The notes under the pieces: generated by a model
The model's input: the letters and a program-made list of their open reading frames with translations, nothing else
Databases searched by the model: none
Told to the model about the DNA's origin: nothing
Program-made: the position numbers and the translations under genes
Part shown: one piece after another, positions 1-22,792 of the stretch
How positions within the stretch are numbered: position 1 is the first letter of the stretch
How the letters are laid out: each line of letters starts with the position of its first letter
IMG/VR virus record: IMGVR_UViG_3300049893_002614
Coordinates: 1 to 23,284 of that record
From: a virus
Length of the DNA: 23,284 bases
Reading direction: 5' to 3' (one strand)

Positions 1-1170
1 GAATACTCCCTCTACAAAGCCGATACCGTCGCCATGATGATCGGCATGTCCCAAAGCACCTCCCGCCTCGAAATCTCCCGCACCCGCCGCAAATGGTTCG
101 AAAACATGCCCAAACGCATCACCGACCTCGGACTGCCCGCCGCCCACCTCCCCTACGGCTACCGCAAACCCGCCGGGCACGCACACGACCCCAAAGCCAT
201 CCCCGAACCCGATCCCCTCCTCGCCCCGCATATTATCAAAATCAAAGATTTGCACCTTTCCGGCTACTCCACCACCCAACTCCGGGATGTTCTGGAAAAA
301 TCGCTCCTAGCCCCGCCTAGGGGCAAACAGTGGTATCTCCAGACCATTCGGGACATCCTCAAAAACCCATTCTACGCAGGCATCGTCCAATTTGGCAAAT
401 CCCGCGTCATCCTGGACCCGCAAACGGGCGCCCGCAAACGTGACCGCCGCATCCCCCCCAGCCGTGTCAGCGCCAACACCGGCAAACACATCCCCCTCTG
501 GGATGCCCCCACCCACCAAGCCATCCTGCTCGAATTCAAACGCCGCGCCAAATCCTACCGCGGGCGCTCAAACAACCAATTCACCGGGCTCGTCAAATGT
601 GGGCTTTGCGGCGCCTCCATGTGGCGGCAGGAAAACGGCCCCCGCCAATATCGCCTCATCTGGCGCTGTTCCTCCAGACACCAACGGCTGACCGCTGACC
701 GCCAAACGCTGAACGCTCCTTGCCACAACACCCTCCCCCACTCCATCCTCCTCCAAAAAATCGCCGCCGCCCTCGAAACCGCCCTCCAGCCTGGCAACTC
801 GCACCCGCAACCTGAAACCCTGCCCCTGCCATCTGCTCCTTCAGCCCTCAGCCTTCAACCTTCAGCCTTGCAAAATCAACTCACCCGCCTCGAAGACGCC
901 TACCTTGCCGGGCAATTCGACCTCCCCACCTACACCCGCCGCCGCGCCGCCCTCCTCGCCCAAATCGAACAAGCCCAAGCCGAAGCCGAAAAACAAAAAA
1001 CGCTGGCAACCCAGCGTCAACAAATCCTGCGTCATATGACCGAACTAAAACGTCAGACCTCCCTCTCCGAATGGCTCCTCCACAACCCCCCCGCCGAAAC
1101 CAACCACACCCTCCACCTGCTCCTCACCTCCATCACCATCGGCGAAACCCTCGAACTGCAATTCCGCTAA
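1..1170 (+). CDS. Large serine recombinase, 3' part (probable phage integrase)
   Basis: The reading frame is open from base 1, so the gene is cut by the window edge and its N-terminal catalytic resolvase domain (with the nucleophilic serine) is not visible. What remains is the end of the long connecting helix, then a 'Recombinase' DNA-binding domain beginning near the PYGYRKP motif (nt 150-170). A zinc-ribbon domain follows, with cysteines CGLC (nt 598-609), a third Cys at nt 667-669 and a fourth at nt 721-723. A Pro/Ser/Ala-rich linker leads to a C-terminal coiled coil (nt 870-1060). This is the architecture of large serine integrases, which recombine attP with attB without host factors. Two heptamer-repeat tracts lie inside the zinc-ribbon loop and the linker. 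It is convergent with the phage late genes and ends at a terminator. A transposon-type recombinase is an alternative. Confidence 0.88.
   Translation, partial: EYSLYKADTVAMMIGMSQSTSRLEISRTRRKWFENMPKRITDLGLPAAHLPYGYRKPAGHAHDPKAIPEPDPLLAPHIIKIKDLHLSGYSTTQLRDVLEKSLLAPPRGKQWYLQTIRDILKNPFYAGIVQFGKSRVILDPQTGARKRDRRIPPSRVSANTGKHIPLWDAPTHQAILLEFKRRAKSYRGRSNNQFTGLVKCGLCGASMWRQENGPRQYRLIWRCSSRHQRLTADRQTLNAPCHNTLPHSILLQKIAAALETALQPGNSHPQPETLPLPSAPSALSLQPSALQNQLTRLEDAYLAGQFDLPTYTRRRAALLAQIEQAQAEAEKQKTLATQRQQILRHMTELKRQTSLSEWLLHNPPAETNHTLHLLLTSITIGETLELQFR
685..719 (+). repeat. Heptamer tandem tract 1, inside recombinase gene
   Basis: Five consecutive 7-bp units of the form C/A-CGCTGA (CGGCTGA, CCGCTGA, CCGCCAA, ACGCTGA, ACGCTCC). 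They lie between the third and fourth zinc-ribbon cysteine codons, so they lengthen that loop. Confidence 0.7.
794..868 (+). repeat. Heptamer tandem tract 2, inside recombinase gene
   Basis: Units TCAGCCC, TCAGCCT, TCAACCT, TCAGCCT occupy 841-868. A more degenerate 7-bp period can be followed back to about 794. The tract encodes the Pro/Ser/Ala/Leu-rich linker between the zinc ribbon and the coiled coil. Confidence 0.65.
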
Positions 1171-20104: not shown

Positions 20105-20443
20105 TTACCGATTGGAAAACGTGCGCGCAATGGTGTCTGCCAGGTAGCGAACCGCGTCCGCCAAACTGTTTACTTCGCCTTCCAATTCGATGACATCAAC
20201 ATACTCCACACTGCCATCGGCTTCGCGTACGCGCACCCATTCCGGCTTCGTGAGGATTTGCGGAATCAAACGCGCGTAGGACACGCCGCCAATGTTGTGA
20301 ATATCATAGGCTTGTAATTGTTTGCCCACCGGCTCGGTGCGCAAACGGATCGAACCCTCTGACTCTGGGCGGGGCGTATCGCGCACAATCAAGCCACGCG
20401 GTTGTTTGACGATCAGCAAATATTTGGGGGATAGGTTGAGCAT
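20105..20443 (-). CDS. 112-aa protein with SH3-like fold
   Basis: The segment IVKQPRGLIVRDTP followed by short strands, LQAYDIHNIGGVSYARL and EWVRVREADGSVEYVDVI looks like a bacterial SH3-type beta barrel, often used to bind cell-wall or protein ligands. A C-terminal helix (VNSLADAVRYLADTIARTF) follows. The ATG at 20443 is chosen, with AAGG about 10 bases upstream, because earlier in-frame starts lie within or before a strong terminator hairpin. It is the first gene after that terminator, so its expression depends on readthrough or on an unseen promoter. Confidence 0.6.
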   Translation of the reverse strand: MLNLSPKYLLIVKQPRGLIVRDTPRPESEGSIRLRTEPVGKQLQAYDIHNIGGVSYARLIPQILTKPEWVRVREADGSVEYVDVIELEGEVNSLADAVRYLADTIARTFSNR

Positions 20444-20460: not shown

Positions 20461-20501
20461 AAACAAAAAGCGCCCGACGAGTCTGTTGACTCGTCGGGCG
20501 C
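20461..20501 (-). terminator. Strong intrinsic terminator inside the late operon
   Basis: A 14-bp perfect stem (20470-20483 with 20488-20501) with a TGTT loop is followed on the minus strand by TTTTTGTTT. This is a textbook Rho-independent terminator. It lies 18 nt before the SH3-like gene, in the middle of the packaging-to-head transcript. Confidence 0.92.
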
Positions 20502-20556
20502 ATCGATTCCGACTGCATCCGGCTCAAACGCCGGACTGCGCAAAGATATTCAATTC
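20461..20556 (-). ncRNA. Candidate ~96-nt small RNA or attenuator leader
   Basis: The predicted transcript runs from about 20556 (7 nt after the -10 box) to the terminator T-run at 20461. It would contain a first hairpin, TCCGGC/GCCGGA (20518-20523 with 20530-20535, extendable by GCA/TGC past a bulge), a short single-stranded linker, and the terminator hairpin. A promoter, a compact two-hairpin body and a terminator are the basic layout of a small RNA gene. Alternatives are a leader with an attenuator, or translation of an N-terminal extension of the SH3-like gene through it. No RNA family is recognised. Confidence 0.5.
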
Positions 20557-20562
20557 AAGCCA

Positions 20563-20590
20563 ATTATAGCCATAAACAAGAAAACGTCAA
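20563..20590 (-). promoter_or_regulatory. Near-consensus sigma-70-type promoter
   Basis: On the minus strand, -35 TTGACG (20590-20585), a 16-nt spacer, and -10 TATAAT (20568-20563). It lies in the only real non-coding gap of the packaging/head region and points at the two-hairpin/terminator segment. Its strength suggests constitutive recognition by host polymerase. Confidence 0.75.
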
Positions 20591-20611: not shown

Positions 20612-20953
20612 TTACCCTGGCGAAAGCGTCCCACGATCTGTGAAACTCCACTCCCGCCGAAACACCAATTCGCCAATCAACCGCCTGCCCAAAAATCCAT
20701 GTGATCGCAGGATGCGCCAGCGTGCGGCCGCCTCCACCAACATTAACCACATATCCAAATTTTTATAGACCTGATCGAGACGTGCTGGCAGGTTTTGCTC
20801 GACCCACAGCATCCAACGCACATCACTCAACGCCATTGCCAATAGCGCGTTTCGCAAACGACGCACACGATCTGCCCGTAACGCCAACGACTCCAGCGCG
20901 GCGTCTCGATAATATGCCCGCTTCACCTCAGCCCTGACTCGCAAGCGCGCCAT
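20612..20953 (-). CDS. 113-aa basic helical protein, function unknown
   Basis: It starts at an ATG 3 nt after the terminase stop codon (TAG, GCT, ATG), in the same frame as the terminase. GGGGG about 9 bases upstream may serve as ribosome site. The protein is Arg/Leu-rich and nearly all helical (ARLRVRAEVKRAYYRDAALE, LALRADRVRRLRNALLAMAL, ...WVEQNLPARLDQVYKNLDMW). It ends shortly before the promoter. A nucleic-acid-binding packaging accessory is conceivable, but no family is recognised. Confidence 0.65.
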   Translation of the reverse strand: MARLRVRAEVKRAYYRDAALESLALRADRVRRLRNALLAMALSDVRWMLWVEQNLPARLDQVYKNLDMWLMLVEAAARWRILRSHGFLGRRLIGELVFRREWSFTDRGTLSPG

Positions 20954-20956
20954 AGC

Positions 20957-22792
20957 CTACATCCCCCAATCATCAGAAAGAATATCATCCAAATTGACAT
21001 GACCTTCTTTCAGCGACTGCAACCTGGTCAGCGCCGTAAGGATGGCGGTCAGCGGATCAACACGCCTGGTGCTACTGGCGTACTTTTTTGAAATCATAAT
21101 ATTTTCCTTTGTATCCACAATTTCCTGAGCATTGGCAACCGCCCAGCGCAACAACGGCGAACCATCGTGCACCAATTTCCGACCGACCACCAACTCGCGG
21201 AACATCTTGGTCGGTTCGCTCAAGACCTTCATCCATTGCGCCACCTCGACGCAAATATAGCCAATCTCACCCAGCTCGATGCTGAAGTGGGTGGCGTTGT
21301 AAGGATCGAACGGGATTTCGTGGACACGCCAGCCTCGTTCTTTTTCGCACGTCTGGATATATTCCAACACCCGCCGATAGTCAGTCACATCCCCTTCGGT
21401 CTGCATCACCCAGCCGCGCCTGATCCATTCACCATACGGAATCTTGTCTGTCTTCTCGTGATTCCGCACCGCGGTTTCGGGGATGAAGCCCATCGCGCAA
21501 ACCGCAACCCGATCATCATCCAACAGGAAGACACTCCCGCACGCCGTCAGGTCAATCTTTTTTGCCAGGTCCAAACCATGCAGGGCTAACTTCCCGCGCG
21601 TCAACTCGATGAACTCATCCCGTGATACCGCACACTGATCCCAGCGTGAGGTTACATCGCCAGGCAACGGCACCAGATAATCCCCCATATAACTATGCTC
21701 GTTCCCCTCCACCCACTTGTTGAGTTTCTTTACACGAAATTCACGGATCTTCGCCGGGTCGCGGCTATCGAAAGCCGCATCATGCGCCTGGCGAAACTCC
21801 TCCGCCGTGATCGGGTCCGCCATAATCAACGCGTTGGACTTTTTCCAATTCTGCGGATCATGCTCATCGTCCTTCTCGTCAAGCTCACGGATCATCACAA
21901 AATACCTGTCATTCCTGGCTTGCTCTCCCAGGATCAACTTGCAATATTCATACTCCCGATAACATGGTGACTCTGTGTCTTTGCCCGCCGTGGTGATGAT
22001 GTACATCAGTGGTTGGGCACGTTGTCCCTGGGCGCTCTCCAATACGTTGTACATCTCGCTCGTGGCATGGGCATGGTACTCATCCACAAACGCACAGGAG
22101 GGATTGAATGAATCTTTATTTTTGATCTCCCCGGAAAATGCACACATGATCCCGCCGCGCGCGCGGTGATTGATTTCAAACTTTCCGATCTTCAGCCGCT
22201 CCGATACATTTCGGCTGGCCTTCGCCATATCTTTGGCCGCCATATAGAGTTTGCGCGCCTGCATTCGATCCACGGCCGTGCAATATACCTCCGGCGACGC
22301 TTCCATATCACCGGTCATACAATAGAGACCGATCGCGGCCCCGCGCGTGGTCTTACTGTTCTTGCGAGCTTCGGTTACGAAAGCTTTCTTAAAGCGGCGG
22401 ACGCCCACCAGCCTGCCGTTTGTGCGTTGTATTTTTTCCGTTTTCGAGACCCACCCAAAGATCATCGAGATTTCCCAGCGATGCGAATCCACCAACCGGA
22501 TCGGCTTACCCACCACGCTGGGGCGCCCCTCAACATGCACCAAACTTGCGAACCACTCGACCGCTACGAAATCCGCCTGGGCTGAATCGAAACGCCAATC
22601 AAAACCCGGTTCTTTCTTCGGGACGACGTGCCCGGCTTTCTTGAGGCGTTTGGCCACGGCCGTGGGCAATTGACCAGCCCGCGCCAGGTCCTTCAGGTGC
22701 CGTAAACACGCCAGCATCTCCATGCGTCCCACCCCGCGCACGCCCTCCATACACTCGACCGCATACCGCATCGTGAAATGCAGATTTTCCAT
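20957..22792 (-). CDS. terL: Terminase large subunit (HK97/phi-type TerL)
   Basis: A 611-aa packaging motor. The ATPase domain has an atypical Walker A, ARKNSKTT (residues 142-149), and a Walker B with catalytic acid FVDEYH (235-240, DE at 237-238). A coupling-type motif IITTAGKD (265-272) follows. The C-terminal RNase H-like nuclease has acidic residues in GLDLAKK (Asp408), FDPYNAT (Asp496) and VDPLTA (Asp579). Length and motifs match the HK97-type family, which usually cuts at cos sites, though cos versus headful cannot be decided from the sequence alone. The ATG overlaps the small subunit stop (TAATG). The stop codon is TAG, with the next gene in the same frame one codon later. Confidence 0.96.
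   Translation of the reverse strand: MENLHFTMRYAVECMEGVRGVGRMEMLACLRHLKDLARAGQLPTAVAKRLKKAGHVVPKKEPGFDWRFDSAQADFVAVEWFASLVHVEGRPSVVGKPIRLVDSHRWEISMIFGWVSKTEKIQRTNGRLVGVRRFKKAFVTEARKNSKTTRGAAIGLYCMTGDMEASPEVYCTAVDRMQARKLYMAAKDMAKASRNVSERLKIGKFEINHRARGGIMCAFSGEIKNKDSFNPSCAFVDEYHAHATSEMYNVLESAQGQRAQPLMYIITTAGKDTESPCYREYEYCKLILGEQARNDRYFVMIRELDEKDDEHDPQNWKKSNALIMADPITAEEFRQAHDAAFDSRDPAKIREFRVKKLNKWVEGNEHSYMGDYLVPLPGDVTSRWDQCAVSRDEFIELTRGKLALHGLDLAKKIDLTACGSVFLLDDDRVAVCAMGFIPETAVRNHEKTDKIPYGEWIRRGWVMQTEGDVTDYRRVLEYIQTCEKERGWRVHEIPFDPYNATHFSIELGEIGYICVEVAQWMKVLSEPTKMFRELVVGRKLVHDGSPLLRWAVANAQEIVDTKENIMISKKYASSTRRVDPLTAILTALTRLQSLKEGHVNLDDILSDDWGM

Follow-up and report, generated by a model that had tools for sequence, protein, structure and literature searches.

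A promoter followed closely by a complete intrinsic terminator, lying between the terminase large subunit gene (terL) and the head genes of a phage, raises the question of what the short RNA so defined does there. The locus belongs to an IMG/VR virus record of 23,284 bases, the whole of which is referred to here as the window. Its minus strand carries the terminase small and large subunits, two small ORFs flanking the gap in which the element lies, portal, an S49-type protease, a P22-like coat protein and a tape measure protein. The two flanking ORFs (20612-20953 and 20105-20443) leave a gap of 168 nt, and the latter opens the operon towards the portal, protease and major capsid genes. At the left end of the window, on the strand opposite to the virion genes, a serine recombinase (PF07508, positions 1-1170, plus strand) is likely the integrase of a temperate phage. 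An earlier note on this DNA had described TTGACG-16 nt-TATAAT on the minus strand, a 6-bp extendable hairpin and a 14-bp perfect stem with a T-run; all three are present where it had put them, at 20590-20585 and 20568-20563, at 20535-20518, and at 20501-20470 with the tail TTTTTGTTT, respectively. The element and its neighbours are composed as follows.

20957..22792, minus strand: terminase large subunit gene, upstream operon (PF20441/PF03354, phrog_9)
20585..20590, minus strand: -35 hexamer TTGACG; promoters stand at matching positions upstream of most of 73 homologous elements
20563..20568, minus strand: -10 hexamer TATAAT; predicted transcript start near 20556
20462..20552, minus strand: full RNA element, the extent matched by the covariance models R1 and R2
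20515..20539, minus strand: hairpin 1 (hp1), GCA-g-TCCGGC / GCCGGA-TGC, loop GTTTGA, one bulged nucleotide
20493..20513, minus strand: alternative hairpin 2 (hp2), putative antiterminator, GTCGG (20513-20509) with CCGAC (20497-20493)
20470..20501, minus strand: intrinsic terminator stem-loop, 14 bp, perfect, loop AACA
20461..20469, minus strand: terminator T-run TTTTTGTTT, found across the family
20105..20443, minus strand: first downstream ORF, 112 aa, with its ATG 18 nt past the T-run

The two hexamers, with 11 of 12 matches, are separated by 16 nt, within the 16-18 nt of a sigma-70-type promoter, and such a promoter recurs in the same place before the RNA in relatives. The core of hp1 consists of 6 bp (TCCGGC/GCCGGA, 20535-20518), which GCA/TGC extends across one bulged G. 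The terminator has the GC-rich stem (11 G-C pairs in 14 bp) and T-run of an intrinsic terminator, both conserved in the family. Within the 5.3 kb scanned, the element is the strongest promoter-like plus terminator-like site. No perfect stem of at least 12 bp arose in 60 dinucleotide-based resamplings of the window, the longest being 10 bp, and promoters of such quality occurred in them at a mean of 0.08; the stem and the promoter are not expected by chance. The predicted RNA (20556-20460) folds with -50.9 kcal/mol (z = -6.8). Models R1 and R2 score the window element at 82 bits (E 1.9e-16) and 83 bits (E 7.6e-18), rough E-values that come from models built with the window sequence itself among their members.

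Homologous elements, 73 of them distinct, were found in dozens of uncultured phages. The family was reached independently through TerL homologues, portal homologues and a DNA pattern, the TerL and portal relatives having been collected without reference to the gap. About ten of these relatives carry, between terL and portal, a terminator starting GCGCCCG or similar, with a short hairpin and a GTCGG-like linker 5' of it. The DNA pattern matched 52 stretches in viral sequences, some 35 of which are complete elements on inspection by eye, and 18 stretches in genome collections, of which three (L146, L152 and L162, all Chloroflexi) show the full anatomy. Order-level searches added one further weak member. 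A search of 400 genomes of the phylum recovered only its own centre, which, with 10 candidates scored per genome, is weak evidence of absence. The hosts are apparently Chloroflexota, as judged from the three genome hits and the weak order-level one. In one Chloroflexi genome (L204:9119-9301) two elements follow each other directly, a weak one (45 bits) and then a strong one (70 bits).

The family has no counterpart in the collections searched. Rfam gave nothing at gathering score in the window or in five homologous loci and nothing usable at relaxed thresholds, the best sub-threshold match reaching 24 bits (E 0.096) against a gathering score of 90. No match was obtained among 50,697 GenBank phage records, nor any full-length element among GenBank phages and plasmids. 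The window's exact terminator stem, searched separately in viral contigs, was found in none of them because the stem covaries.

By comparison, the element is a real RNA family. Seven of the nine hp1 pairs have changes on both sides across the family, as do six of the 13 modelled terminator pairs, most of the others being invariant, partly as a result of the search pattern. Both helices covary when measured against shuffles and slides, and none of 500 shuffles reaches the observed values. The pattern, which fixes letters of the linker and arm, is matched by 37 of the 73 members and not by the other 36. The earlier note had proposed to look for covariation of both stems in related phages, and had held that absence of the hairpins and promoter from close relatives would count against it; both stems do covary, and the element came through this check.

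Two further features go beyond the earlier note, namely an alternative hairpin and a second copy. Regarding the former, the linker GTCGG can pair with CCGAC in the 5' arm of the terminator, and this pairing excludes the terminator. When transcripts are folded up to the terminator loop, hp1 and hp2 form in 47 of 54 members, the window included. Among the 36 elements outside the search pattern, 30 have at least 5 contiguous linker-arm pairs, and the mean Watson-Crick run is 4.06, compared with 3.50 when linkers are re-dealt; none of 2000 shuffles reaches the observed value, which is not a strict probability since these members are related to each other. Compensatory variants are numerous (GTCGG/CCGAC, ATCGG/CCGAT, GTTGG/CCAAC, GACGG/CCGTC, GTCAG/CTGGC, TCAGA/TCTGA and GGCGG/CCGCC), and the fit is poor in L004 and L204. 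In L142_942, L200_539 and L011_3898 the terminator arms pair by wobble or mismatch and the linker suits the 5' arm, an arrangement that speaks for pairing rather than for a simple duplicate of the 3' arm. The element thus has what marks an attenuator, an alternative helix that uses the terminator 5' arm and covaries. With about 5 bp, hp2 is far weaker than the terminator and therefore cannot win unaided. The inverted repeat GTCGG..CCGAC was also considered as a DNA operator, and this was rejected on its spacing, which varies from ~8 to 12 nt between members.

With regard to the second feature, two copies flank terS-terL in most of the contigs mapped. Copy A precedes genes for a small membrane protein (so named from its hydrophobic sequence, with no family match), an HNH protein, terS and terL, and copy B lies between terL and the portal operon. 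Copy A is invisible in the window because the latter ends 34 nt beyond the terS start. The placement persists while identity to the window proteins ranges from 27 to 70% for TerL and from ~22 to 85% for portal, and the element therefore tracks operon borders rather than one protein family. In all 73 cases an ORF of at least 45 aa begins within 64 nt of the model end on its downstream side, and roughly two thirds of these ORFs have an SD-like site; ORFs outside the window are simple longest-ORF calls, of which a few may be spurious. Homologues of the ORF at 20105..20443 directly follow the element in L005, L096, L118, L119, L127 and L102.

The element can be lost from one border. At L215:3300-3360 and L216:3300-3360 the upstream gene and the membrane-protein gene directly adjoin, forming a natural empty site. 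Copy A is cleanly absent from both contigs and another copy is kept elsewhere in each; the element therefore behaves as a cassette. In 59 portal-family loci without a detected element, no strong terminator stands upstream of the portal gene, a result that applies to most of these loci, since some have little upstream sequence; the element thus marks a subset of phages. Two observations on individual contigs may be added. On a contig of 67,683 bases (L199-L202), ~36 kb separates two terS-terL modules that are each accompanied by an element pair, perhaps two neighbouring prophages; and in one branch (L003:3926-4855, L019, L021 and L088) the gene directly 3' of the element encodes an M23-peptidase/SH3-like protein that, by its sequence, looks like an endolysin.

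Promoters keep a regular distance from the RNA. In 38 of 69 elements the best upstream promoter lies 12-30 nt before hp1; with an extra hairpin (hp0) in between the distance is ~55-67 nt, and a few promoters stand at other distances. The end of the -10 hexamer itself is some 15-25 nt short of hp1 in the family, or ~55-67 nt if the additional hairpin is present. A promoter score of at least 9.6 is attained by 48% of elements against 0.7% of control windows. At copy A the -10 hexamer and the stop codon of the preceding gene can share bases. The hp0 hairpin, whose C-rich loop reads for instance GTGCCCCCCTCAC or TTGCCCCCCTCAA, forms the transcript start of many type-B copies and has its own promoter directly ahead; it occurs at L013:3361-3399, L014:1672-1710, L015:4772-4804 and L007:2824-2868, also in L091, L096, L115, L118, L119 and L205, and is absent from the window. 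None of 73 leaders contains a leader peptide (an ATG/GTG mini-ORF with an SD-like site), the mark of a translation-coupled attenuator.

Most phages encode, immediately 5' of copy A, a protein of ~100 residues with a conserved C/H..G + CxxC...W segment. Genes for this zinc-ribbon-like protein are found at L005:4310-4633, L106:7751-8086, L200:188-508 and L140:8521-8862 and in their relatives. Scanning for closer relatives with a six-member alignment gave 17 loci, all in contigs carrying at least one element; 15 have the element, 14 of these within ~60 nt of the gene end, and in the remaining two (L215 and L216) the gene is followed at once by the membrane-protein gene. These loci were found via proteins beside elements, and the association therefore demonstrates co-inheritance and not function. 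The zinc-ribbon assignment is a candidate one, based on the arrangement of cysteines together with a single Pfam match below threshold. The AlphaFold model is moderate (mean pLDDT 79.6), a fold search with it returned no match at E 0.001, and tblastn detected no such protein in GenBank phages. A likeness to phage Mu Com received no support from Pfam and was dropped. As for known factors, ten element-bearing records, several of them fragments, contain no match to NusG (PF02357), as a LoaP-dependent leader would require, nor to Phage_antitermQ (PF06530) or Antiterm (PF03589) of the Q families. The zinc-ribbon-like protein is put forward as a candidate antitermination factor.

Comparison among relatives establishes the structures of the element and the covariation within them, as well as the promoter and the location of the two copies before late operons. 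From this we infer that the element is probably a cis-acting leader of the late (head) operon, producing by default a short terminated RNA and gated by antitermination. A housekeeping-type promoter would start the RNA near 20556, and the emerging transcript would fold hp1 and then hp2 (GUCGG with CCGAC). Once the 3' arm is made, the 14-bp terminator would displace hp2, and transcription would end after ~90-95 nt, right in front of the gene that opens the head operon. During the late phase, hp1-hp2 would be recognised or held in an antitermination event, so that polymerase passes into the head genes. The most likely agent would be a phage factor that loads close to the promoter, and the zinc-ribbon-like protein whose gene adjoins copy A may be this factor; one signal would switch both this copy and its twin before the terminase operon. 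A more specific version is tentative: the element may represent a previously undescribed RNA family of Chloroflexota phages in which the zinc-ribbon-like protein reads the choice between hp1-hp2 and the terminator, late antitermination being based on RNA and not on DNA (qut).

Antitermination could also proceed as at put of phage HK022, the nascent hp1-hp2 binding RNA polymerase and making it resistant to terminators without a phage protein; the adjacent terminator would then be the first that it overcomes, or a safeguard that stops polymerases whose leader had not folded. Two copies and two adjacent stem-loops in nascent RNA are found here too. However, put serves early operons, a conserved protein gene adjoins copy A, and hp2 shares bases with the terminator, whose completion destroys the second hairpin, all of which makes this reading unlikely.

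The leader reading was among three options left by the earlier note, which had considered an independent small RNA, a leader or attenuator, and a target of an antitermination system. The last two are supported by our analysis, while the first fares badly. A trans-acting small RNA of ~90-95 nt that base-pairs with other RNAs would indeed have its own promoter and terminator and the right size, and some type-B copies possess a further hairpin with a C-rich loop, a known trait of such RNAs; but that hairpin is not universal and the window lacks it. In addition, phages commonly have two or more diverged copies, every one of them directly before a late operon. No seed is conserved in the unpaired segments, the 5' one included, and a free small RNA would not be expected to have a covarying hairpin that excludes the terminator. 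We regard this option as quite improbable.

The position of the module exactly at operon borders, together with its loss from one border, would also suit an unregulated insulator plus promoter, which blocks read-through from the upstream operon and passes a fixed fraction of new transcripts, hp2 merely tuning folding. Nevertheless, a promoter placed before a 14-bp terminator would mostly waste transcripts, and hp1, hp2 and the fixed promoter spacing would be needless, which leaves this explanation with very little probability. A structural packaging RNA like phi29 pRNA can practically be dismissed, as the element adjoins terL but persists beside very different terminase and portal types, recurs before several operons and has an intrinsic terminator at its end, next to the start of a gene.

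The late-operon leader that we favour has its closest parallels in known antitermination systems; its anatomy is that of the lambda late leader, whereas its use of RNA structure would be that of HK022 put. The late plan of phage lambda runs from the Q gene through pR', 6S RNA and tR' to the late operon, with Q binding DNA at the promoter. The element likewise heads a late operon with a promoter, a short RNA and an intrinsic terminator, and at copy A a small conserved gene lies directly upstream, with the small membrane protein, HNH, terS and terL genes directly downstream. In contrast to lambda, it has two copies, conserved RNA hairpins and an hp2 that excludes the terminator; Q families were not found in the ten records mentioned above, and a protein of no known family occupies the upstream position of Q. 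In this regard, Q-dependent read-through of an intrinsic terminator follows sigma-dependent pausing (PMC9378689). In HK022, put consists of two ~70-nt copies, each with two stem-loops, downstream of two phage promoters (PMC9378689). In its general form the element resembles putL and putR, with a pair of copies per phage close to promoters and a nascent RNA that forms two adjacent stem-loops, but it stands at late and not early operons and its second hairpin overlaps the terminator.

The LoaP-dfn leader (PMC12691694) similarly places a small recognition hairpin and then an intrinsic terminator before a long operon. LoaP, however, is a NusG paralogue, and the ten element-bearing records gave no NusG-family gene. 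RNA-dependent antitermination also gates long operons of mobile elements in conAn2 / ConAn1 and Tn916 canT, conAn coupling RNA with a small protein (PMC8955417, PMC11658703). Those systems serve conjugation operons, whereas the RNA described here forms two states around one terminator. Attenuators of the BglG/LacT RAT type, which depend on a protein, form an upstream hairpin that takes up part of the terminator 5' arm and so prevents the terminator from folding, as hp2 does here; the element differs from these in its place in a phage late operon and in the hp1 that precedes the switch.

Late gene control of Chloroflexota phages appears uncharted, since our search of the open-licence literature found no paper on it. 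The element appears to be a new kind of RNA gate for the expression of late genes; its RNA signature offers a handle on the late operons of uncultured phages, and the zinc-ribbon-like protein is pointed to as a specific candidate regulator. The likenesses to lambda, put and LoaP lead us to read it as a leader of the late operon at which transcription ends by default and passes only when the gate is opened, so that lambda-like late-operon logic would recur with other parts.
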